A DNA stretch of 64,000 nucleotides, from the NCBI GenBank assembly GCA_022925895.1, contig JAKSYS010000195.1:1-64000 (forward strand), read 5' to 3'. How positions within the stretch are numbered: the first letter of the stretch is position 1; each line of letters begins with the position of its first letter. Below the pieces are notes generated by a model that worked only from the letters and a program-made list of their open reading frames with translations, had not been told where the DNA came from and searched no databases. This stretch comes from Fragilaria crotonensis (lineage: Eukaryota; Bacillariophyta; Fragilariophyceae; Fragilariales; Fragilariaceae). A program made the translations under genes and the position numbers. Of this stretch, positions 1 to 17,182 are shown in pieces.

Positions 1-340
1 CATCAGAAGGTGCAATATGGTAACTAAATTTTCACATGTTCAGTGTTACCGGATAATGGTGTGTCTTTCCTGTTCTTACAATGTACATGGTTGAGTAAAC
101 AAATATGTTAAAACAATATATTGTTACTTTGAACCATATTAGCAACATATTGATTTGTTTCATAAACATTTATGTTAAGATACTTTGCTTCTTGCCTTTC
201 TTATAATGACAATACACCATCTTTGTTAAGTGCATTCCGTTGGAAAATGACCATATTTGTTGTCGTTTATGTTGCTTAGTAGATATATATGCCGTTGACT
301 ATGTTTCTTTGTAACTATATATGTTACTCCTAAATTCAAT
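1..340. repeat. Left terminal and subterminal repeats of the DNA transposon
   Basis: Positions 1-12 form the outer terminal inverted repeat. The next 330 bases are AT-rich and contain many degenerate copies of a short motif around AACATAT or its complement ATATGTT, for example near 105, 140, 170 and 320. No gene is supported here. Such arrays are the usual transposase binding sites in CACTA-type elements; that role is inferred. Confidence 0.65.
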
Positions 341-439
341 TGTACAAATCACAATTGTTGATTAAATCCACCTATATTGTTTCATTACGAGTTGCTGATG
401 TTGTTGTCACTTCTAACGAGAAGGCACCCGATGCAACGT

Positions 440-2054
440 CTAGTCATCATCTGAGTCCCAGTCCGCCTCGACAGGCACCATTGCTTCCGCTCTCTCCAAC
501 GTATTATTGGGCGCTGCACCACCTGCATCTAGCTCGTCATCCTGATTATCACCAGCATTCTTCTTTCCAGCGCTTGCCCTGCAGAAACGCATCAACTCCT
601 TTTCCATTTGCTCGGCTTCCGGACACGCCCTGTCCTCTTCAACCACCTTGCGCAATGCATTGAACTGGCTAATTCCGTCTCGACTCCACCCACTGTACTT
701 GCATTGTCCCGCTTTTTTTTGGGTATACTTTCCCGCCATTCTTCTTGCTTTCTTTTGTATTCCCTGCCCGCTGCCTGTTTCTGCTTCTGTTGTTGTGCTG
801 TTGTTTTCCGTTCTTGGTCCAGTGCCTCCTGCCTCCTCATCCGCTACGACTTTCCACTTCTCCAAGTAATTGTCGATTAGCAACAAACCGAAGGCTTCGT
901 CGCTCACACTCACAATTTTTGATCCATTGCTCTCTCGCGCCGCCGAAATGAGCTGTGTTGTTTTTGCATTTCTCAAGACGTTCGCACCACAAACACATTC
1001 CAAGAAGTTGTTGAAGAACCAGAAGAACGCCCTTTTTCCCTTTCTGACGTAGATCTCCTGAGCTTGCAGAATTCCTCGAATGTGAAGAACTCTTCGCGCG
1101 CTTTTGAAGTCTTTGATTGCATCCCTTGCAATTTGGGAGCCGGACTGTTCGCAAGTACTTCGTTTTTGGTTCAACGCCTTAGTGAAACATTTTTCGTATG
1201 TCAATTGAAACACGAACGGATTCTTGGGCCTCTCCACCTCTCGCACCTTTTGAAAAGCCTTGGTGAATGATGCTTGACTGGTTACAAACTTGATCCTACG
1301 GAACAAGTTGTTTTTGACAAATATCGTAATCCGCTGCGCCACATTCTTCTCCACTGTCGGAACTTCCAACTCTGCATTAAACTGCAACTCCCGCGGCCTG
1401 TAATCATTTGTTGCCCTGCTTGGGGCTTTGACGCCTTTGAAGTTCCGTCCTCGTCCTCGCTCGGAGGATCAGCCGCACCTTCCTGGGCACGGCGGCTCGA
1501 CTCTTACGATTCTGTTGCTGACGTTTCAAGGAGTTGCTGCGACGAATCCTCGTCATCGCCCGATGATTCGTTGTCATCTGGTGAGTCATGAATAGCATCG
1601 GGGTTCGAGGAACTTTCTTCCCCGCCTCGGTATCATCATCCCTGTCGCCATCAGTAGATTTGTAGGACGAGTCATCATCCGAGTCCTTTCGTTCAGAACC
1701 CGGGTTGTTGCGTGGTGGGGGCGGAGCCCTTTTTGCTTTTGCCCTGTTTGTTTTCTTCCTCTTTGCCTTGCCGCCCGAACCAACAACACGCTTTTTTCCC
1801 GGTTTCTCCAGCTCAACTGTCTCCACAGGATCCGTTTGCTGTACTGTCTCCAATAGTTTTGCACGTTTTGCCGCCTTCCTTTTCTCCTCTTTCAGTTTCC
1901 TCTTTGTCCGCGCCGTTGGTGTTTCGGGTTCACCGTTCCTGTCTAGACGAACGCGTCCGCCTTGTCCTTGTTTGCTCCGAGTGCGCGTTGCTGGTGAGGA
2001 TTCCAGAATGTTTGTCACCACTGGAGGCATGACGGCTGCAATGGACAAGTACAA
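440..2054 (-). pseudogene. Transposon accessory protein, frameshifted
   Basis: Two adjacent minus-strand reading frames (2054-1404 and 1387-440) look like one gene broken by frameshifts. The first part is strongly basic (KRKLKEEKRKAAKRAKLL, then KAKRKKTNRAKAKRA), followed by Asp/Ser-rich sequence. Near 1600-1450 a second frame is acidic (Asp/Glu/Ser-rich) with one stop. From about 1440 the third frame opens with APSRATNDYRPRELQFNAE and continues into a 315-residue stretch ending in WDSDDD. The C-terminal part contains a Gln/Lys-rich segment. I do not recognise a domain. Its place inside the inverted-repeat element suggests an accessory DNA-binding protein, comparable in position to the second protein of CACTA elements; this is inference. 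A spliced intron is possible but no convincing GT-AG pair was found. Confidence 0.5.
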
Positions 2055-3257
2055 AAAGCAAGCAATGGGTTAGAAACAAGTCTGACTGGTACGTTTCAAT
2101 TCGCAGCAAGTGTGAGTTCAATAACAAGATTGCAATTTTTAGTCATGTACTTTTTTTTGAATCAGAGAACAGTTTTGGAAGCGTGCACTTGTTGTCCTGT
2201 TTGTTCATCATGTAACTGTACATGATTTGAACATAAATTTATTATGTTCAATTTTAACAATAATTTAACATGTGCATGTCATTTATGTTGTTTGAATGTA
2301 CTTGCGTGTTCACTACATAATGTCGTAAATGTACAGTTTCATCTACTTGGATGCATATGTGTGAGGTTTTGAATATATACGACATGTGTGTAGTGCAGTC
2401 TTGTTTTTGCATGGGCGGCCTCGCCAATCATGTATCGTCAGTACCGCTAAATGTCGTACGCAGCAGTGGTACTATTAGTTCGTGTATATATGTTTATTAC
2501 TACGGTGTATACAAATATATTTATTAACATATCTTTGAATATGTGTGTCGCGTTGAATACATAGGTGGATTATGAATCTTATGACAGTTTGAGACACGAA
2601 TCATAAAAATTGACTACTGTCGATACGTATGCTGCAGTACAACGGCCATGTAGCAGTATGCAGTCCAGTCATGGGAAACTAATAAATCATACATACATGT
2701 AAATAAGCATTCTCTTTTTTCTGACTATTAAACTTGATTAAGTACAAATATTATGATGTGTATGTCATTTTATTATACATATACACGGATACTTAATTAA
2801 CATTGCTACGAATTAAATCTATGTATTAAAACCATGTATATATGGCTGTACTCGTGCAATTACTCTAAGTAAATGCACCTCATTTAAAGGTCTTGCTTGG
2901 AGTTCCCATGTGTGAAGTTTCCTTTTTTTGCATAGCACGCAGTGTATCTTGTTTTGCCTGTTTTCTGCGCGCACTGACACCAAAAATCACAATCTGGTGT
3001 CAGAGTACTTCTATGAAGTACTTCGTTCATTGATTGTGTTTCGCAACATAACGTCGCCGTCGGATCGTTCTCGCTTCCTTTGAGACAAATTGACAGTCCG
3101 CGCCAGGAAGCGCGTTGATTGCTTTGTCAAAAAGGACACGGAACTGGCATTGTGCGGCTCACTACCTGCCAGGAAGCAGTAGAGAGCCCGATGTCGCCAA
3201 ATCGACGCGACGTTGGTTGCGTTGGCGTGGATGTTGTGGTGGAGAACCGGATGACGG
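2055..3257. other. Internal non-coding segment between divergent transposon genes
   Basis: This AT-rich stretch separates the minus-strand accessory gene from the plus-strand oxygenase-like gene. It contains further AACAT/ATGTT-type motifs (for example 2230-2290) but no supportable ORF until about 3258. It probably holds the divergent promoters of the two genes. No individual promoter element can be assigned. Confidence 0.4.
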
Positions 3258-5482
3258 TTGTGGCGGAGAGGAAGGTTGTGGGAGTGGGGTTGGCGAAGAC
3301 GAAAAGCTCGCAAAGAAGAGGAAAACGCAAAGAAGAAGGCTGCGGAGACCGGGAATAGGACTTCCCCAACTATGGCGTGTGTCAGGAACCTGGGGAACTC
3401 GCCACGTGTTCCGGGAGCGGACAGGAAATTCCTTCCTACTGGGCGCGACGAGAGGCAGAATCGCCCAACTCATCAGCGCATTATGACGCTGTTGTCCATG
3501 GCCGTTGTTCCGGAGGAGAGGATTGCATTCAGGCGGAGATTTGTGAAGGCCATGCGGGGTGGTGATGGGAGTGCCGCGAATTGTTGTGTTTTACTCCCGT
3601 GAGCGTCATTGCAAAGGCTTTCGGATGCAAGCCGTTTCAATTGCGTTCCGCTGCCGACATGTTCCCGGAGTCCGGACTCCAGTCGGAGTTCCTCAACGAG
3701 TTCTACGTGATGGACGTGATACTCAATCGGGCTCCTTCACCGGCCGTTTTGACTGGCGGTGGGAAGGGGGGGAGGAGTGGTGGCGGCCGTCGTTCGCATC
3801 GCGATGACTGCGATGCAGTCCGTCATGCCCTGTCACGCAAACCGGAAGACATTGGCCCTGGGATGGATCATTTCTACCGGGCTGCAATTCTGTTCCTACC
3901 TCAGTGTGGGGTGTTCTATTGTCACCGTGACCGTCACGTTGGGGATGCTGGCGTACCCGGCACGCTGAGAGCGTATGATATGAGCTGGCTCCGCTTGCAG
4001 AGGACGGAGGGAACAGAACACGACTTTCCGTTGTATGCCTTTGGTGGTGACAGCTTTGTGAGGCGGTTCTATTCGGATCGCGGTCTACGCGACAACCGCC
4101 GTGTTTCTGCGTGGAGGATCTCCACGGGGTACCTACCCAGTTCCCTACAGAATCGGGTGGTGTACAGGGCCGTTCACAATAGTGATGCTGAATTACCTGC
4201 GTTACCACCGGATTTCATTGCTGGCGTTGACCTGCGGACTGTCCCTGCTGACTACCGCGCTCATGAATTCCGCAACAAACTCAGAAATTCTAGTAGTGCG
4301 AAGTTTGATTGCCGGCATTACGTTGACGGCAGCCACCACTACAATCTGCAGGAGTCTTGCTGGATCATCGATCCAGAAGAAACTCACTTTGTTGATGTTC
4401 ACGTTCGCGTCGATGGAATTCCAAACCGTGAGTCTGTCGTTGCCATCCGGAACGTAACGAAGATCAGTGCGTGCGATGACCACCTTGAGTTGCTGGAGCG
4501 GTTGACATTGCGATGTCGTCAGATCCGAGTGTCGGGGCGAAGGGCACTGCCAGGGCGAAGTCGTCCGATGTCGGTTCAATGTTTGCACTGGGCACCAGAA
4601 TCGAGAAAAAGAGTCCCCGACAGGCGTTGCTGTTCACAGCAAGATTCCGTACGCAGCCAATGGATGTGTTTCGGATAGTGTCCTCCGGGGTCTCGTGGTT
4701 GACTTGGCAACCCTTGGGAGTCGCTGTTTCCTGTGGTCTACTCCGTGGTAAGGGACACCGAGGAGAACTCGGACTGAGTCCGGTGCCACCGATGGATGGC
4801 GTTGCCCTTCCGACGGGTGGGGTCGTGCGGGCGTGGGTCGGATTGCGATGATGAGAATTGTGTTGATGATGATGACGATGACGAAAGAGACGGTGGCGAT
4901 TGCCTTCGCAAGGAACTTCGGAGGAAAATGGAAGCGCAAGAGCGTAGACAACGGGTCGGATACACCGTCGACATGAGCATAAACCTGGGCAACTCCTCGC
5001 ACTACGACGTGAACGATGCCTCGCAGGGCTATAGTGTGTGGACAGAGGAGGTGCTGGGCCTTGGGAAGAACTGGTATTTTGTTATCCCCAGTGTGTGTGG
5101 CCTGCGACCGGGCACGAAAACCAAGTTCAGTGGCATGGCGGTGAAACTTGGCCACGGCGTGGCCATCAGCTGGGATGGCAGGGTGATCCGGCACTGCACG
5201 TCGGTTTCCTGTCCAGACGGGATGGAACGTGGGTTTGTTGCCAGGAAGAGGGAGTCTCCCTTTCGAAATTATCTTTATGGGACTTTCACGGCAGCAAAGG
5301 AAAAAATTGTTGAGGCGGGGCGTGCCACGTGTGCCGAGGCTTTCTGTCCCGGAAAGCCCTCTCCTGTTAAAGCGGTGGTGGATCGCAAGAAGCGGCCGAA
5401 CAGGAGGCGGAGAAGACCCCGTGGGGGCCTCGGATCGAATCCGGGATGCCGTGGTTGCGGGTGTCGGTTGTCCTGCTGTTGA
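3258..5482 (+). pseudogene. Transposon-borne 2OG-Fe(II) oxygenase-like protein, frameshifted
   Basis: Plus-strand frames at 3258-3602, 3581-4678, about 4513-4851 and 4796-5482 read as one long gene with several indels. The best part is the last frame (228 residues). It has an Asp-rich run near residues 19-32, a basic helix (about 38-54), then a segment with H69-Y-D71 in SSHYDVNDASQGYSVW, NWYFVIP near 92-98, and VKLGHGVAISWDGRVIRHC with H133. HxD followed about 60 residues later by His preceded by a hydrophobic strand is the metal-ligand layout of the double-stranded beta-helix 2-oxoglutarate/Fe(II) oxygenases, including the TET/JBP group. The C-terminus is basic (KKRPNRRRRRP). Family assignment is inference from motif layout. 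TET/JBP-like genes are known passengers of fungal KDZ DNA transposons, which makes the context plausible. The N-terminal 300-400 residues are unrecognised. Confidence 0.5.
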
Positions 5483-5758
5483 GTTCGCTTCTGTTGAGCC
5501 GACTGTTGAGCTCCCTCCGTTGTGCCGCTGGTTTTGGTGGCTGGCAGGTGGGCAACTGACCTGGAGGTTGGTGGAAGGTACAGGATACCAAGGAAACAAA
5601 AAAATAAACAACATGTTCGATTTGAATACTGAAACTACTCCTTCTACTGGTACTCTTCATTGACAGCACCCGAGGGACTGTCTACCCCTTCTTTGTCTTC
5701 ACGGGAGCTTCCCACTTGCGTTTCAAGTTCCCTGTGGACTGTTGTGCGGCAGTGGCCT

Positions 5759-8700
5759 TCACAGCCTTTGCAGCCTTTGCAGCTGCTTTCTCTGCGGCGT
5801 TGTCATCCCTCTTCTTCTTGGCGGTAACCTTTTCGGCCTTTTTGTGGCAACCTCAGCTTCAAACTCTTCGGCAGTCTTGACCCTATGCACCTCCCGTCCA
5901 CTTGGCAGGCGGCTGACAAATTCTTTCTCGTACTCCTCTTCAAACCAAGTGTCGTCGTCCTCGTCGTGTTCCAAATCTTGGTGACACTTATTGATGAGAG
6001 AATCCCACGCTTGGGGCCACTCCGCCTTCCGACGGATCAAAAACAGGTGACACCGCTTGCGCCTCGGTGCTTTGTCTACTCCAAATGGGGGGATGTCTTC
6101 GATGCCGAGTACTGGAGATACAATGGACTTGACGTCCACCAGGAACAAGGTTGGATGTCTCTCATCGGGTGAGTGGAAATGTGGGGTGTAGCGCCCTATG
6201 AGAGTGTTCGGAGTGTCAAGATCGCCAACGGAAACTGGATCAAATGAATGGGCAACAGCATACAACCCGGCTTCCAAATTTTTCTGCCCATTTGCTTTGA
6301 TGTTAATGCACTCTCCATTTGGAAGCCCACGAAGATCAACAAAGGTGTGGATGAATGCTGGATAATCACGGGGGTATCCTTCCCACTTGATCATTGCACT
6401 GTCGTTCCAGGCTTTGCCATCATAACAGGGGTGAGCGCGGTACTTGTTGCCCTTACGGTCGGTGAACAATGTGAAGCATGGAAGCGAGTGCTGCGGCATC
6501 TTGGGCAGGCAGTGGTGACTCAGGAAGTCCATTACTCGAGTTGAAAGGTGAGCTGCCTCCATGTTGTCACCAGGGGACGGATGAGTCCAGCAGCACGCTG
6601 AAACTTCATCGCCAGTCTTCCAAGAAAGGTTGAAATGTCGGCCACCCTTGCCGTCAACAAGTAATGCATCGGGTTGACCTACTCCGTTGTGGGCATCGCC
6701 TTTTCTATCGGTGTCCATGTCCGCAGAAGCAAGTGATACAACAAGATTCTCAACATAGCGATGGGCAGCTTGCTTGGTGAATGAAACGGCTCGTTTCTGG
6801 GTGTTCCGTGATGTTACCTTTGCGAGTGGAATGTGGGCTGACTCCGCGTACGAACTGTTTACGTTCTCTGGGACGCCGTGGTCAAGGATGTCCTCGCACA
6901 GATGCAAGACCAAATGTGTCTTGATCGTGTTGTTTCCCATTGCTCCTGGGCGGGGTGCCACTTCAGCGACAACACGCATCAGCCACTGAACTGCCACATG
7001 AACGCTTCACCATTTTTTTGGAATGGATGGTTGCTTCATCCATTGATGCCACACTAGAAGAGAGTCACGATGTCAATCCAATCTATGACATGGTTTTCAT
7101 AACGAAGCCTTTGGTCGGGAACCCCAAGTCTGGGTTCCTTCTTCCCGACATCGAAGATAGTGCGGAAGCAGGTGGTGTGCAACGCAAACAACTTCACCAA
7201 AAGGCACCCTGCCATCTCGTGTCCCATCAGATTGGTTCCTGATGAGAATCCCTTGGGAAAGTTTGTTCGTGGGACATCACGGTCACTCTGTCTCGACAGT
7301 TTGCGGCCCAATTTTGCACACAGTTGATCGTACTCCTTCAATGCATTGGACTTGGGACCGGCTTGGGTGGAGAAAGCCTGCAGGCAGTATTTGAACCAAC
7401 CGAGGGAAATCAAGTGTAGCATCTCACCTGGACAGGCGCCAAAAATGCCCCGCTGATTGTGCAGACCAAAACGAACCCTGGCAAAGCCGTTTTTAAGGTA
7501 GGTCTGCGACAGCAATTGGAGCTCGTTGGTAAAACCTTTGCGAACAAGGGTGTCCATTTTTCTGGGAAGGCGGTGGGGAAACTTAGACTTCGAGTAACCA
7601 GTCAAGTATGTAGGGCACTCGCAGATGCGACAAAGTTGTTTGATCTGTGAAAATCGGGCGGTGTAGTGCCCACAAAGGCGGTCGTGACCCTCTGTGTCGC
7701 CGATGATGAACGGGACATAGAGGTGGAACACGACTGGGTGTATTGTTCCGTTGTACTGCAGATTCCATCGGAAGCCGTACTTTTGCAACTGTCAAAAACC
7801 AGACTCTTGGAGAATAAACTGGATCTGCATGTGTGTCTCGTTGAGGAGCAATGTTGCCCAACTGACATTTTCATCGGGGCACCGAATTGGATTGTTGACA
7901 AGGTGCACTCCCTTTGACTTGGGATCAATTTCGGCATCTGAGGGGAGGTTGGCAGGAGTGCTGTGATTGATGTATCCAAGGATGCGCATGGCGCTTGGGA
8001 GGCGGCGCGTAATGTGGTTCAAAAGGCCGTGTGAGACTGTTATGGGCTCCATCTGGAGGCGTCCAGCCATGTCAATGTGGGTCTTGTCCATCGCCATGAC
8101 ACAAGGTAGGAGCATGTCAACACCGGGTTTCTTTATCAGGGCATCGTACGTCTTTCTATAACAACGACCTGTGTGTATGTCACCAACATCCGACGATGCT
8201 TGTGGTGCAACAAATGGATCCTTTGCTTCATCAAAAAAATAATTTGTGTCCTGATTAAGTGTGGGACACGAGAGAAGCGACGCGAACACCTCCCGAGCAT
8301 CAAAAAAAACCATGGACACTATCCTCTGCGTGTAAGGGAGATACAATTTCTTCTCCTTGGGGATCAGTCCGTTCATATTATACCTTTCGTACAACTTGGC
8401 GATGACCTTCTCTCGAGTTGGTTGAACACCCTCGCGGAACACATGACCACTCGCGTTTGATTTGGCAGCCCACTTCAGTATGATGGTAAATGCTTTGAGA
8501 GGACAGTGCAGCTTTCTAAGGAGATCTAATAACTCAATTTGGACCTTCTCCTCCTGGGAAAATCGCGCGAGACCTAGTGGGTTTGCTCGTAGCTTGAACA
8601 GTTCCAAACACAAATCCAACACACCAAGATCAGGACCTTCCTCATCCTCTTCTTCAGTTTCTTCAAAGGCATCCTGATTGCCAGCGTCGCCATCATCGTT

Positions 8701-9021
8701 GTCTTCAAACATCACAAAATTGTCATCGTCAACTGCGTTCAAATCGTTGACGTGATGCAGAGGATCCCCCGCCTCTCCTCTTAGAGATGCACCGCTCCCA
8801 CGGAGTGAAGTCCTCGAATTCGGGAAAGTGGAACGATTTCCGACTTGCGACGCATTAGTTGTGTTCGCAATGCTGTCGTTCGGGATGGTGGGTGCCACTG
8901 TTGCTGCTGCATTGACACGTGACATGTAGAATGATTTACATGCCAAATTATGAGCGAGGTGGGACTGAAGCCTCTTGAAACTCTTTCCACAAACAGCACA
9001 AGCATTAGTCGACGTTGACAT
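5759..9021 (-). pseudogene. CACTA/Plavaka-like DDE transposase, broken
   Basis: Three consecutive minus-strand segments (9021-7792, 7788-7054, 6997-5759) form one transposase. The N-terminus has a zinc-finger-like motif (CAVC...HLAHNLAC) and a Ser/Asp/Glu-rich linker. Candidate catalytic acidic residues are D in AMDKTHIDMAGRL, D in FIIGDTEGHDRLCGHY and E in NSSYAESAHIPLAKV, the D-D-E spacing seen in Plavaka/CACTA (Tnp2-like) transposases. QLCRICECPTYL after the second D fits the Cys-rich insert of that family. The C-terminus is basic. An in-frame TGA lies at 7792-7794 (same frame continues at 7788) and there are at least two frameshifts between about 7070 and 6990, so this copy cannot make a full protein as read. 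Terminal repeats at both ends support the class. Family assignment is from motif memory, not a search. Confidence 0.7.
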
Positions 9022-9029
9022 TCTGATCG

Positions 9030-9564
9030 CTGCTGATGAGTGCGTTAATGTGCAGAGTGATTAGAACAGAACACAAATGTTTTATTGTGATCAACAAAAT
9101 TTATAAGGCATGTGAGAAATGATTGGTGTACAATGATTATTTTCAATGAAGCCAGAAATGGTTCGTTCGTAATCCCCTTCTCGGATCCAATAACAAAATG
9201 TGGGATGTAATACACATACCAGTTCAATAGAAAAAGGAGTGCGTGATAAGCGTAGGTCATTCGATTAAACCATGATGGTCAGATCAAAATATATATGTCG
9301 TACTAACAACCGATTTACACAACTGTGACGCGTAATAACCAAACATGTTATGAGTTACAATGCAAAAATTTGATATTTTGCAAAGATAACAATCAAAAAT
9401 ATTACTTTTGAATATATACTATAAGGAAGGACTAATATATTTAAAACTAAGCAATCACACATTTACTTTTAACCATATTATTGCATCAACTAACAATATA
9501 TGAATCACAATGCACAAAAAAGTTAACATATAATGACATAGTTAACATTCTTCACCTTCTGATG
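9030..9564. repeat. Right subterminal and terminal inverted repeat of the DNA transposon
   Basis: AT-rich sequence with repeated AACATAT-like motifs (about 9330-9545) ends at 9553-9564 with CACCTTCTGATG, the reverse complement of window bases 1-12. The next base, 9565, begins the interrupted Copia reading frame. No gene is seen between the transposase start at 9021 and this end. Confidence 0.75.
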
Positions 9565-9565
9565 T

Positions 9566-12500
9566 TACCTCCACGACGACCCAACGGTATATGACAATTT
9601 GGAAATCCTTCGCTTTATTTATAAAGAATGGCCTAACATGGCAACCACCATTCACACCAAAACCACGATGGATACGTTGAAACGTCGTCTCTTGTCGATG
9701 AATGTCCGTTACATATACCGTGGAGAAGACCCTGGAGATTGGGCATACTGGCGCGACTATACCGATGACGGAATGTTGGAATACCATATTGCACCAACGG
9801 ACATGACATCGATGCAATATCCGGTACACGAGGATGACGAACACTCACCACCGGCAACAACGGTGCTAGATAGAAACCCCCATGTCCAATCTGTTAATAG
9901 AGAAGACGATGATGATGCTTTGCCAGCCACACCTCTGCCAGATAACGTCACGCCACCAGGGACCCAAATGCCAGATAACGTCACGCCACCAGGGACCCAA
10001 ATGCCAGATAACGTCACGCCACCAGGGACCCAAATGCCAGATAACGTCAAGCTACCACGGACCCAAACGCCAGATAACGTCACGCCCCCACTGACCCAAA
10101 TGATTCCCAAGACATTCGCACAAATCCTCCAAACGGAACGCAAAGTAAACCTGCCAGATACCGTGACACCCCACGCGAAGTTGTTCACAGGGCAAGGCGA
10201 CGCTCTACCATTGGATCAAACGCACCACACCAAGGACATTGACAGGCAGCGGGTCAAGACGGTCTTCAACCCATACACTGGACGACGCATTGCCGTTACC
10301 ACACGCCCATCAAGTCCTGTAGACAACAAGGCGTCGTCAGAAACATTGGCTCGGCGTCTCCTGACCGATTTAGACGATGAAGAATTGTTTGATACGGACG
10401 ACGGCGTGGGCATCCCCGACGGGTTCACGCCCGTCCTCTCGCGACACGGAAAACCGCAGCAAGACGGCCCGATGAAACGTACATGGCAACCACCGCCTCC
10501 CTTTCCTAGCCCTGTTTACCAGGCAGTGACCACCGCTGCCCCCAGTATGAACAACGTCACAAATGCACAACCTACGGAAGCGGAAAACCCCAACACGACT
10601 CTACCAGGACCCTCACAGCCGGCCATGGATACCTTCACAGATATCCTACATGAACACCTCCAGGACGCCCTTCAACAAATCGACCGCAAAGAGAACCAAC
10701 ATATGCGAGTGATTGAAGAGCACATGGCGGACATTGCATGCCGAAAAGAGGACTTGGTACAGAGGGAACATCAGTTGACGACGGCACAGCAATGCTTCAA
10801 CCAGCGACAGCACATCTACATTGAACGGATGAACCATTGGGAAGGTGATGTCATGTCCCAAGAAGCTACTGTAACCCGTAAACGGATTGAACTGGACACG
10901 GCCATGGCAGAATTTGATCAAACGATATCGACAGCTACTACCAGGTGCAATGACCTGGCGGATCAGACCAAGCGATCCATGCGGGCCTGGATAGAAGTGA
11001 CCCTGGAAAAGCTGAAGACTGACTAAGATATCTACAAGACAGCACACAAAGCACATACGGAGGAGTTCTGTACGGAACAGATGTCCGCACTCGAAAGCTA
11101 CCTCGATAGTTACTCGGGACATGCTGCCGGTATCCATGCAAACTTGTTAGTCAGACTCCGACGCGACATTACCCGCACATACCACGATATCCAGATGGAA
11201 AATCAAGACACGGCCCAACAGCACGCAGCTATCCCACTCGATGATGATACGGTTGAAGGCGACGAAGCGATGCCCACACAACAAACTGGCAACGTGACCA
11301 ACAACCCTAGTAGTCATATTCCCGCCCCTGCGGATACCTCCCTCCCGCACGACGTTGGAAAGATGTGGATTATGACATGCTCAAACAACCCCCTCCACGC
11401 CATGGACCTACTGGATACTCACCGACTTTGGGCCATTCTCCTTCACCTCGCATGGAAGTCATTCACCCTCCTGGAGCCTCTCTGCACTCCGACGTGGACC
11501 AACAGATATCCCGCCTACGGAAAGCGAATACTCCTACCCATCTCCGCGGACGAGACCGGAAATCCGTTACAGTGTTCTATAATTCATTTGTTGACTTCCA
11601 CAAGATTTATCGGGTTCCTTTTAAAATTCTGGATGATCTCCGCATTGATAAATTGGATGATGTCACCCAAGAGCGTTTGCACCCGGCTGATCTCCTGGAA
11701 GACCCTACATTGTATGACAGGTACAGTTCCGCTATCTACGCTCGGTTGGAAGAAGACGGTGTGTTAGACCCATCGGATCAGCTCTATCAAGGATTACTCC
11801 AAATGTATAACTCAAAACGGGACGGCTACCGCCTACTCCAGGACATCCTAGCCACAACTCTCCTGGTTCCATCGAAGAATATTGGCCAGCTCAGCACGCC
11901 TCCGACGGTTCAACAGGGTACAACGCCATACGACTTTGCATGGCAACTCAAAGAATTTTACGCATGCCAACTCCAGCACAACAGAACCTACACAGTACGC
12001 GAACAAGCCACTATGTTTCTCCAAGGAATGCAGCACGCGACCCCGTTTACACATGCCGCTACTCAGCTTCTGCACGACATGCACCAGCTTCCAGAGGGAG
12101 TCCCGCTCCCATTACGCTTGGCTTTTCCGAACAACTTGCCGTTGACTCTCCTCACCTCGGCCGAGACGATGCGTTCCCATTCCAGTACATCTGCAACTAT
12201 CAACGTAACTCGTTCGACTCCCCGTACCGTAGACGACCGCAACTCTCACGACCGTGATCGGAGTCGTGAACGACGCCCAGGCTATGATCGTCGCCCACCA
12301 CGCGATTCAAGCGTGGGACGTGAATCAAGCGCAGGCCGATCCACACGATCGACCCCACAAAGACCACTCTCGACGACTGCGGCCCCCCGCCCCACGGCTC
12401 GGAATCCTGACGTTCAATGTGCAGCCTGTGCCACAAATGGACACACTGCGCTGGATTGTCGTCAGCTCCCAAAGATTGCGGCATGTATGGAATATATCAC

Positions 12501-15500
12501 CGCACATCCTACTGAGGCCAATAGTACATTGCGACAGTACCGTCGAGCTCAACATCCCGAACATCGACGCATGGCCCGTGACCGCATCATTAACGTCTTA
12601 CAAACAAGACTTCAACAAGGTACATTGGAGGATGACGATGAGGACATAGAGGCCATAGTTGACCAATTAACTGGCGACTACTCAGATGACGACTACATCG
12701 CTCCAATATTCCACCTCCGCGCGGAGACTCCGCAGACTCTTCCCGATTCACACTGGATGGCACAAATGTCAGTACCGACACTACGAACCGAAGAGATATG
12801 CACATCGATCCACCCCGTGAAATACCCAGACATTTCGGAATTTATGGATACGAAGAGGCTGAACCGCATCCGCTACCCCATCCAGCAGGAGAATATTGTC
12901 GTACAACCCTTGAATGTCACACGGATTTCGCCACGCCTCGACACGCGCCGAGACCTCGCGGATACAGGTGCATCCGTCAGTGCGACAGGTTTGTTGAGCA
13001 TCCTCCATCAATTCACAGCCGATACCCTATATGAAATCATGGGATATGATGGCGCAGTCACGAAGGCCGCTGGCCAAGGAATCGCCCTCGTACATCAGGC
13101 CACGACAGGGAAAACGGAACCTATGCTCTTCGTTTACGTCCCTACTATCACCGGCACAATCATTTCATTGGAGCATCACGCACGTACACATCCTGCTATC
13201 CATCGATGGGTACAGGAAGCCACCCCGAGTCAGAACTCTGGATGGGTGACCTTCTATGATGCGAACGGTGACAAGGTATCAAGCTATCCAACTATTATGG
13301 ATAAAGGGCTGTATTACATCCAAGACATGATATTCATCCCGACCACCACCAACACCTCAGGTCCCACAGAGCACATCAACATGACCTCTCACCACCCCGC
13401 CGAGACGACTCCGCCACCATCATTTTTGGATGACGTAACCGTGCATACCACGAACCCATCCACACCACTCAATTGTGTGGATTACGACCAGTCACTCGTC
13501 GTGGAACACACACAGTCCATGCTCCGCCAGGACATACCCACAAATCCGATCTGCACTGATTACAACCCCCCTCAGCCAAAGCAGATTTGGATTAGCAGTA
13601 TTTTGACCAGCGCAGAACTCCCATCTGATACGAACCTTGGAAAAATGGAAAAAGACGTTCTAAACTTTGAAGTATGGCATCAACGCTTTGCACATTGTTC
13701 TGAAAAGCGTCTCCGACTGACCCAAAAACACGTAGATGGCATTCCCAAGTTTCATCATGCTACCATCCCTCACATTGTGGCGTGTCGTGCTTGTGACGTG
13801 GCTAAACTTCGGAAGGCACCTCGCGGCCCTGCGGCCACTGCTTTCCCCAGTATGGAAAAGGGCCAAGTCTTTCACTTGGATATCGGATTCATCCGAGGTC
13901 CAGCGAACCTTCCAGAAGTCCTTGCTCGTACACAAGATGCAGAGCCAAAGGTTATTGAAAGTCGTCAGGGATATGTATGTTATTTGCTTATCATCGATAG
14001 CAAGACCCGTTACGGTTGGCCATTCCCAATGAAATCAAAATCCGTCCCACCGACCCTCATCCGTACATTCCTCACAACACACGGTAATCACACGGCAGCA
14101 CACCGTCGCATCCGCACCGATGGTGAAGGCTCGTTGGCTGAATCCACTGTTTTTCGCAGCTTAGTGGCGGAACTGGGATACACATTAGAGAAAACCGCCA
14201 CCGACTCTTCCTCACAGAATGGCATCGCTGAGCGACCCCACCAAACGCTAGCAACCATGGTTCGATGTTTGCTATATGCTTCATCCTTACCCACCCCCTT
14301 CTGGGCGGATGCGTTGGTCTATGCCAGTTACGTCAATAATCGGTTATACAACTCAGGCATCAACGCCGTACCATACACACAATGGACGGGTCGTCGTGCA
14401 AACGTCAAACACCTTCGGGCTTTCGGCGCACATGTTTCGGTTAAACGAAGCGGCAACAGACCAACCAAGACGGATCCACATTACTACAACGGGCGTTTTC
14501 TCCGTTTTGGTGCTACGGAACGCAACATCATATATTATGATACTGTCACCAAGCGGGACAAGACAGCGCGACACTGCAAGTTGGACGAATTTCATTATGG
14601 TTCCCCCCCTTCGGAGCGTCCTCACGGTGCACAACACCTATTGTCTCAGGTCTTGCCTCGTTACAACCCGCTTTCACCACCTCTGGACAACCCCAAGGAC
14701 ATGCCGTTGGACGAATTCGAGCCCCACTCTGATATCCCGCTCCCTATCGATGCGATACATGAGACATTGGATGCCCAACCCACTACAGCTGTTGCCGCAC
14801 AACTTCTTGCCCATCAGCAGCACCAGGCCATCTTACATCTCGATATGTCGAAGGATATGTACGGCAAACCTATCACCCTTACGATTCCCATCAATCGTCT
14901 CCCAACGTTAGGTTTCATCGTCCACATGGATACCACCACTGGCCAACTCTTCATTAAAGGCTGCCAAGATGGTACATTCTGCTCCCGCATCCCCAGATGG
15001 CGCTCGACAATTCGCAACTCGGTGGTTCGTTCTCTTAACTCTACTCGAGTCCGTTCTCGCACACACATGGTGCAACTGATCCAAGAATCTCGAAGCCAGG
15101 GCCGAGCACACGTCACATTGATACTCGCCAAGATTGCTGTTCGTACCAACGACGACGATGAGATTCCACAGCTCCACTTCGATCAACTCCGCCACCTTAA
15201 CCAGTTACACATCGCACTACGAGCTCCGACTAATGAGGTCAACGATGCCTTTCTCAATTACACTCGTGCCCAGCTACGCAAACGTCCCGATTACAATGAA
15301 TGGCGTCAATCCGAATGGCAACAACACAACAAATTTGCACTACAAAATATGTTCGGTAAGCCTATTCCGCGCCCGGATCACGCTATTGTTTTGCCGTTTG
15401 TTTGGAATTATTCCATTAAAGAGGATCCTATCACCGGGGTTCCCAAACGTAAAGCTCGGGGAACGTGCAATGGCGGAAAACGTTATGGTAAGGCAGTCAC

Positions 15501-17182
15501 CGTTGCCGAAACATACGCTACTTGCGTAGAACAACCAGCTTGCCGATTGTATTGGGCAGTGACCGCTAGTGAAGGACTCCTTGCAATGGGCGCCGATGCT
15601 GGTAACGCATTTGCAGAAGCCCCACCCCCCGAAGAACCTTTCTTCATGAAAATTGACGACCAGTATATGGAATGGTGGATTGAGCACCTTGGCAATGATC
15701 CTATTCCACCAGGCTTTGTCCTACCCGTCAATCATGCTTTACAAGGTCACCCTGAGGCATCACGATTATGGGAGACACACATTCATGGTATTATTGTCGA
15801 CAAGTTACATTTCACACCAACCAGCACCCATGAGAAATGTTTGTACAGCAAGCGTGATCCAGATGGCAACAACCTTCAGATGATTCTCCGACAGGTAGAT
15901 GATTTCTCGGTGTCTGCGGACTCTCAGGATCAGTGTCAACAAACAATTGCAACCATCGGCTCATATCTTCAAGTCCCCTTAAACGATCTTGGCATCATTC
16001 GGAAGTTTAACGGCGTGAACGTTCTACAAACCCGCTGGTACATCAAAATTTCCTGTGAAGATTACATCTTGAAAATCCTGCTCCACCACAACTGGCAAGA
16101 CCTTAAAGCCTCCAACCTACCGATACCGATGCGACAAGATTGCAAATACCAACGCGAACTGGAACTTGCGATACGCCCGGATAGTCCCCATGCACAGCAA
16201 CAAGTCCAGAATCAGGCAGGATTTTCATATCGTATGACAATCGGAGAGCTGATATATGCCCTTGTGGTTGCCCGAGTGGATATCTCTTTCTCCATCATTA
16301 AACTGTCACAATATAGTGCAAGCCCGGCAAGTATCCATTACCAAGCAGTTCGACACGTCTTTGCGTTCCTGAACAACACCCGCACAGATGGCTTAATCTT
16401 CTGGCGGAAGACACCTCGGAACGATCTACCCCTGTCGGACATCCCTGCCCCGCGCTCAAATCCACAGGACCGTCTACCGACGCCATGTACTGCTCCTAAC
16501 CGTCTCTTGGCATATTCGGATTCGGATTGGGGTTCAGATGCCTCCCATCGACGGTCAGTGACCGGTACCATCATTTTGCTCTCCGGCGCAGCTGTACTGT
16601 ATTCCACTAAATACCAGAAAGCCGTTGCTCTCTCCAGCACTGAGGCAGAGTTCGTGGCTGCATCGGACACAGGAAAAACAGCAATATACATGCGCACCAT
16701 TCTCTCGGATCTTGGTTTTTCACAGGACAACCCGACACAACTCCTTATCGACAACACCGGTGCAGTGTTTATGATCGACGCCCAAGCGCCTACGAAACGT
16801 ACGCGCCACGTCGATATCCGTTACTTTGCTCTCTTTACAATGGAGTAACTCAGGCCAAGTAAAAGCAGAAGCGATACCTACGGACGCGAATATCAGCGAC
16901 TCCCTCACCAAGGCAACTGGACGCATCAAGTTTCACCAGCATGCCGACATCTACATGGGTCGGTCTCCACCATCCTATGTCCCTCATGATGCAGCACTTC
17001 CCCCACCAAGCACACGTCGCATCCACACTTTCATGGTACTCCCAGTGACCTTGGAAACTTTCTCTGCTCTACACCATCACCTAATCAGCTCATATGTCGT
17101 CCATCCATCGGATTACATCAATGCTACAGAGCATGGGAGGGTGAGAGGCTACAGCCCCCGTAGTACTGTAGCCACTTCCTAG
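9566..17182 (+). pseudogene. Copia gag-pol polyprotein, one stop and two frameshifts
   Basis: Domains in order: a gag-like N-terminus with a Pro/Asn/Thr repeat (9938-10102) and a coiled-coil segment (about 10630-11020); a gag core (about 11570-12180); a zinc knuckle (CAACATNGHTALDC, about 12420); aspartic protease (DTGASVS, about 12960); GAG-pre-integrase (WHQRFAHCSEKR, about 13680); integrase core; reverse transcriptase with RQVDDFSV near 15890 in place of the usual YVDD; RNase H (SDSDWGSDASHRRSVTG, about 16520; SSTEAEF, about 16640). The reading frame is broken by an in-frame TAA at 11024-11026 (the same frame continues), a frameshift near 11360, and one extra T near 16838, after which the frame ending at 17182 supplies the RNase H tail (ALLQWSNSGQ-like). 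All parts belong to one polyprotein of more than 2,400 codons. The domain order protease-integrase-RT-RNase H defines Copia. Confidence 0.85.
9938..10102 (+). repeat. 33-bp coding tandem repeat, five copies
   Basis: Five head-to-tail 33-bp units at 9938, 9971, 10004, 10037 and 10070, encoding PDNVTPPGTQM and variants (the fourth unit is PDNVKLPRTQT). The first three are nearly identical. The unit length keeps the frame, so it expands a proline-rich linker in the Copia N-terminal protein. Confidence 0.9.

Follow-up and report, generated by a model that had tools for sequence, protein, structure and literature searches.

The window analysed here is the first 64 kb (64,000 nucleotides) of contig C110 from the Fragilaria crotonensis genome (62.1 Mb, 881 contigs). 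It begins with a transposable element that contains a candidate oxygenase gene. This locus raises the question of whether a DNA transposon of a diatom carries its own enzyme for altering methylated cytosine and, if so, by which chemistry. The genome has 19 matches to the silicon-transporter Pfam family (best E 4e-193), which we take to mark the host as a diatom.

A PlavakaB-type element and its copies

A Plavaka-type DNA transposon occupies positions 1–9564 of the window. The left terminal inverted repeat (1–47, +) starts with CATCAGAAGG, and its partner at the right end (9518–9564, −) closes with CCTTCTGATG; the inverted-repeat match is 72% complementary over 47 nt. Because the contig begins at the left end of the element, the target duplication of this copy is unreadable. 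The transposase is encoded on the minus strand (5759–9060) in three frames, 7792–9060, 7054–7791 and 5759–7006. The first of these contains the Plavaka transposase family PF18759 (E 1.1e-6, 28.6 bits, cut-off 26.3), which was also detected above the cut-off in the transposase copy on contig C1 (29.5 bits). The frames at 7054–7791 and 5759–7006 matched no Pfam family. The oxygenase gene and the transposase are arranged tail-to-tail. A probable third gene (440–2069, −; frames of 342 and 221 aa) had no Pfam match, and parts of its DNA are kept in diverged copies of the element.

Long plus-strand frames resembling a Copia-type retrotransposon, a family assignment made by eye, adjoin the element at 9565–16848 and include an open frame of 1844 aa (11314–16848). 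Given this neighbourhood, the element may have inserted into a Copia-type retrotransposon.

In BLAST comparisons, relatives on contigs C98, C177, C649, C620 and C773 share 89–98% identity with the element per BLAST piece, and those on C829, C393, C295, C1 and C16 share 71–86%. Both exact ends, CATCA..TGATG, are present in five of the 11 copies read (the window, C649, C773, C829 and C393). The other six have the right end only; their left end is truncated, mismatched or outside the stretch. Target duplications of 2 bp (AA, AT, GA and AT) were found in all four other copies with both flanks readable. The elements on C649, C773, C829 and C393, with both ends and target duplications, contain the oxygenase gene. 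PlavakaB transposons are described as having 5′-CATCA..TGATG-3′ termini and target duplications of 2–3 bp (Kojima 2025; PMC12730594). The element belongs to a DNA transposon family of PlavakaB type, and this diatom has that family in abundance.

A protein search of the genome with the oxygenase frame listed 150 matches out of 296 candidates; the first transposase frame matched at least 104 pieces. Merging of the listed matches gave at least 148 gene loci and at least 91 transposase loci. Among the matches listed, the oxygenase gene lies within 8 kb of 57 of the 91 transposase loci, and 56 of these 57 close pairs are tail-to-tail. The chance expectation is 3.5 pairs, a value that assumes an even spread of loci and ignores the clustering of repeats. 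The sequence-only reading had placed the gene inside a Plavaka-like element, and the defined ends, the target duplications, PF18759 and the tail-to-tail pairing bear this out. The other 34 transposase loci, including the one on C98, are without an oxygenase gene within 8 kb among the matches listed. In the C98 copy (L009, 352–5580), about 5 kb of other DNA separates the oxygenase gene from the transposase, yet the gene is inside the element.

The candidate oxygenase gene and its conserved core

The frame at 4796–5482 (+), P0001, encodes 228 residues. Its translation contains the motifs that had first drawn attention to it: SHYDVNDASQG with H69 and D71, NWYFVIP (residues 92–98), GHGVAISW and VIRHC. 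H133 in the last of these follows D71 by 62 residues, the spacing originally given. The frame covers only part of a gene, which is longer and frameshifted in this copy. On contig C393, a relative has an open frame of 827 residues that maps by tblastn to window positions 3477–5368 in changing frames; the window copy is thus frameshifted and decayed. The similar pieces are 3477–3653 in frame 3, 3572–5368 in frame 2 (crossing stops) and 4611–4730 in frame 3. Near 5558–5596, a C-terminal motif resembling the one in the C393 protein was recognised by eye. The TET/JBP-like oxygenase gene is thus placed at 3477–5620 (+), with an approximate 3′ end.

A conserved core corresponds to residues 53–175 of P0001 (4952–5320, +) and comprises HxDxxD, W82, NWY..P, SWDGRxxRH and GTFxAAK. 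The same core occurs in a second subfamily on contig C122, inside an open frame of 1494 aa from stop to stop (L078, 1252–5736, +). Neither the 827-aa frame of C393 nor the 1494-aa frame of C122, including its long stretch after the core, had a Pfam match.

Conservation was read at 46 loci, the window plus 45 from the listed genome matches, mostly picked for diversity; these gave 37 distinct cores. The three predicted Fe(II) ligands H69, D71 (H69-x-D71 codons at 5000–5008, +) and H133 (5192–5194, +) are kept in all 37, as had been anticipated for intact homologues. E84, W93, P98, the run W126-D-G-R129 and R132 are equally invariant. D74, five residues after the first His (codon 5015–5017, +), is Asp in 36 cores and Asn in one. 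W82, at +13 from the first His (codon 5039–5041, +), is Trp in 35 cores and Phe in two.

Selection on the core was estimated by Nei-Gojobori dN/dS on 666 pairs. Only 48 pairs were usable (dS 0.1–1.5); 618 were dropped, 599 of them with dS of at least 1.5. All 48 usable pairs have dN/dS of 0.06–0.24 (median 0.14). The oxygenase gene is a transposon accessory under purifying selection.

Fold and family placement

Two AlphaFold models were compared with known structures by Foldseek. Model 1, of the copy on contig C131 with 25 sequences, has a mean pLDDT of 67.5. Most ten-residue blocks of its core (residues 121–240) reach 78–91; weak spots are the HxD block (53), the second-His block (62) and the next loop (42–50). 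Its best 15 PDB matches are all TET2, CMD1 or CcTet (probability 0.99–1.00), and the same proteins account for all 14 PDB matches with E <0.001. Model 2, built on the C98 copy (95% identity to the window frame), has a mean pLDDT of 79.6 and a pTM of 0.80, with 59 for the HxD block and 78 for the second-His block. CcTet and TET2 occupy ranks 1–8 of its PDB matches, followed by FTO (9th), CMD1, ALKBH3 and AlkB. In both models, the HxD loop belongs to the lower-confidence parts of the core. For the TET-family matches of both models, the TM-score by query length is modest (0.27–0.48) and the rmsd is 5.8–13.4. The two models have most alignment rows in common and are therefore not independent. A predicted double-stranded beta-helix had been the proposed check on the oxygenase assignment, and TET/JBP oxygenases are the top PDB matches of both models.

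In a comparison with predicted viral structures, a protein of Synechococcus phage S-CBWM1 was among four matches with E <0.001. The gp8 protein of this phage contains Tet_JBP (Pfam scan, E 4.3e-18), and another of the eight phage proteins used for comparison, gp8 and seven relatives, is annotated PF12851. An hhalign comparison of the diatom family with these eight TET-like proteins scored 37.3 (E 6.3e-4) with a probability of just 27.9, and the trimmed core gave a probability of 52. The alignment pairs H135, D137 and H198 of the C131 copy, equivalent to window H69, D71 and H133, with the phage ligands H334, D336 and H386. The score is above all controls run. None of 200 column shuffles reached it (best 25.1), and reversed alignments scored 14.3 and 16.1. 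A prolyl-hydroxylase alignment scored 19.5 against the diatom family, less than the highest-scoring shuffle, and 29.6 against the TETs. A prolyl-4-hydroxylase-like open frame near the C393 copy (L025, 2254–3360, −) served as this control, which represents a different family of 2OG oxygenases. MAFFT placed the same residues in register as hhalign, using cores pre-cut around the HxD motif. The diatom and phage families share the iron ligands, the strand pattern and, in seven of the eight phage proteins, Asp or Asn at +5 (Ser in one). In contrast to the diatom family, all eight phage proteins retain R-x-S in the final strand and mostly have Leu or Met at +13; core identity between the families is only 12–22%.

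Profile and sequence searches placed the family less readily. With E up to 1, no Pfam oxygenase family matched any of 25 members, and the 11 families listed match one member each. At the same limit, neither these members nor the whole genome gave a match to Tet_JBP (PF12851). A PHROGs search did not place the family, nor did a search of PDB sequences with P0001; profile searches of PDB with the family alignment or its trimmed core found no oxygenase. IMG/VR viral contigs and prokaryote genome contigs yielded no relatives. A mixed profile of phage TETs and diatom sequences matched TET2 (E 0.0025). This match is not counted as evidence, as part of the signal comes from the phage rows; chance matches to GAPDH rank after TET2 and ahead of CMD1 (E 0.069), and a version with fewer phage rows matched just GAPDH and one other kind of unrelated chain. 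The NWYFVIP strand resembles the K-W-Y-P strand of JmjC proteins. An assignment to JmjC was rejected; the list for model 1 has one JmjC protein, at rank 31 (E 0.17), and the residue before NWY varies.

Predicted fold and iron ligands support placing the protein in the TET/JBP superfamily, as a divergent, putative Fe(II) oxygenase. The sequence-only reading had proposed a 2-oxoglutarate (2OG)-Fe(II) oxygenase that is possibly TET/JBP-like. Its family assignment is supported; its 2OG dependence is doubtful because the Arg expected for 2OG binding is missing, as described below.

Proposed function

With a probability of roughly two in three, the frame is the catalytic core of a PlavakaB-type accessory, a TET/JBP-superfamily oxygenase that would alter 5-methylcytosine (5mC) and weaken silencing. 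The protein would bind DNA, either in the element or in the host, and flip out 5mC with D74 at the N4 position. It would then oxidise or otherwise alter the methyl group, and this alteration would weaken the methylation-based silencing of the element. In the known enzymes, the cytosine N4 of 5mC is contacted by CMD1 Asp350 and TET2 Asn1387, and NgTET1 has D234 at the same site (PMC7854593). The anti-silencing role would extend to the diatom gene what has been proposed for fungal transposon TETs, namely help in escaping silencing (Kojima 2025; PMC12730594).

In the host genome, the C5 DNA-methylase family is represented by 13 matches. The decay of the element copies was compared at CpG and other positions in the window copy and five close copies, of which C620 and C177 cover the element in part; only BLAST pieces of at least 85% identity and 200 nt were used. 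Singleton transitions are more frequent at CpG positions (56 of 836) than at other C/G positions (38 of 2703; odds ratio 5.0, p 4e-14). Singleton transversions are also raised at CpG (16/836 versus 27/2703). Such CpG-biased decay is expected if the host methylates copies of the element, and it implies that methylation reached these copies at least to some extent.

Co-substrate and alternative functions

A conserved Arg downstream of the ligands had been expected for a 2OG oxygenase. It is absent. In TET2 and NgTET1, Arg1896 and Arg289, respectively, bind the C5-carboxylate of 2OG (PMC7854593). The diatom column aligned with the 2OG-binding Arg of the phage TETs by both MAFFT and hhalign is L160 in the window (codon 5273–5275, +); it contains Leu in 18, Val in 16 and Cys in one of the 37 cores and a gap in two. 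The adjoining columns, 158–163, likewise show no Arg among their listed residues in these cores. Basic residues occur elsewhere. Position 168, near the core end, is Lys in 33 cores, Arg in two, Leu in one and a gap in one; it aligns with a phage Arg and may parallel Arg418 of CMD1. Further upstream, an Arg in the motif [AV]RxxxGDxGxM is conserved in 24 of the 26 sequences with a letter there, out of 27, and a second, in GTR, in 23 of 27. Either could correspond to the upstream active-site Arg of CMD1, Arg244 (PMC7854593).

CMD1, an enzyme of Chlamydomonas, uses vitamin C, not 2OG, as a co-substrate. Its Trp358, 13 residues after His345, takes the position that Arg1896 has in TET2 and is considered to keep 2OG out (PMC7854593), and a review describes CMD1 as lacking the canonical 2OG sites (PMC11065753). 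The diatom family has Trp or Phe at this spacing. The eight phage TETs have Leu (six), Met (one) or Pro (one), and alignments read by eye show Val in TET2 and Leu in CcTet. The missing Arg together with Trp or Phe at the spacing of Trp358 makes the co-substrate uncertain; it may not be 2OG. By the published numbering, the chemistry may be CMD1-like.

The enzyme could thus depend on vitamin C and add a glyceryl group to 5mC (5gmC), or make a related bulky change, hypermodifying the mark instead of erasing it. This is possible, if on balance doubtful. HxDxxD with D74 at the position of CMD1 Asp350, the Trp or Phe at +13, an Arg column of Leu, Val or Cys and the lack, as in CMD1, of a working C5-carboxylate Arg all agree with it, and CMD1 is among the PDB matches with E <0.001 of both models (7cy8 in model 2, rmsd 5.8 over 339 columns, gaps included). 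The host genome also has a match to PF04030 (ALO; best E 5.9e-11), a family that presumably serves ascorbate synthesis. However, the match at +13 comes from published numbering and not from a residue-by-residue alignment. At the aligned position, where the diatom family has no Arg, CMD1 retains Arg410, which points away. The two His of CMD1 are 52 residues apart, compared with 64 in the diatom family. R129 or R132, both invariant, could bind 2OG in another way. CMD1 was not singled out by sequence, being behind chance GAPDH matches in the joint profile, and it ranks 18th and 19th for model 2, after CcTet, TET2 and FTO.

The model 2 list, with FTO at ranks 9 and 15 and ALKBH3 and AlkB chains next, would also fit an AlkB/FTO-like demethylase of nucleic acids, acting on N-methyl substrates, perhaps 6mA or RNA, and not on 5mC. 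This function is clearly unlikely: TET-family chains come first in both model searches, neither FTO nor AlkB is among the best 50 rows of model 1, no AlkB Pfam family matched among the 25 members, and D74 would fit the recognition of cytosine N4. The loss of the canonical 2OG Arg could alternatively indicate that the fold binds iron without catalysing an oxidation and that the protein assists the transposase by binding DNA or as a structural component. We consider this quite improbable, as the H, D and H ligands, W-D-G-R and R-H are kept over 37 sequences under strong purifying selection. That a host gene lies near the transposon by chance is exceedingly improbable: the surrounding element was read individually at a minority of the 148 merged gene loci, but nearly all close pairs share one tail-to-tail arrangement (56 of 57) and the C649, C773, C829 and C393 elements, with both ends and target duplications, contain the gene.

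Comparison with known transposon TETs

The preferred reading, a transposon-borne TET/JBP-superfamily oxygenase that would alter 5mC, has parallels in fungi. Iyer et al. are said to have reported in 2014 that fungal KDZ transposons carry TET/JBP genes. The diatom family resembles these in combining a DNA transposon with a TET/JBP gene, by the same logic. Plavaka transposases have no sequence similarity to KDZ transposases (cited in PMC12730594). TET-bearing Plavaka transposons are known from Agaricales fungi, and all TET-bearing Plavaka families in the study of Kojima (2025) are PlavakaB; its main text does not mention diatoms (PMC12730594). The fungal elements and the diatom family have in common the Plavaka transposase, the CATCA..TGATG termini, the short target duplications and a cargo of TET/JBP type. 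They differ in the host and in the cargo itself: the fungal cargo belongs to the PE type and has HxE (PMC12730594), whereas the diatom family has HxD, no match to the Tet_JBP profile and no 2OG Arg. A TET/JBP-like gene on a diatom transposon was not reported in the literature searched, which was covered in part.

To our knowledge, CMD1 has not been described as transposon cargo. In a bolder, rather unlikely version of the vitamin C hypothesis, a large transposon family of a diatom would encode its own CMD1-like, vitamin C-dependent cytosine hypermodifier, evolved or captured apart from the fungal transposon TETs, that would make 5mC bulky and unreadable to the silencing machinery. A TET/JBP gene on a diatom transposon, with an Arg-less active site and the Trp spacing of CMD1, would point to more than one uptake of methylcytosine-altering enzymes by transposons. 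Whether further TET_JBP proteins use other co-factors was named as an open question in a 2024 review (PMC11065753). The open-frame relatives in this one genome put both that question and the possible rewriting of a host's silencing mark by a transposon within reach of testing.
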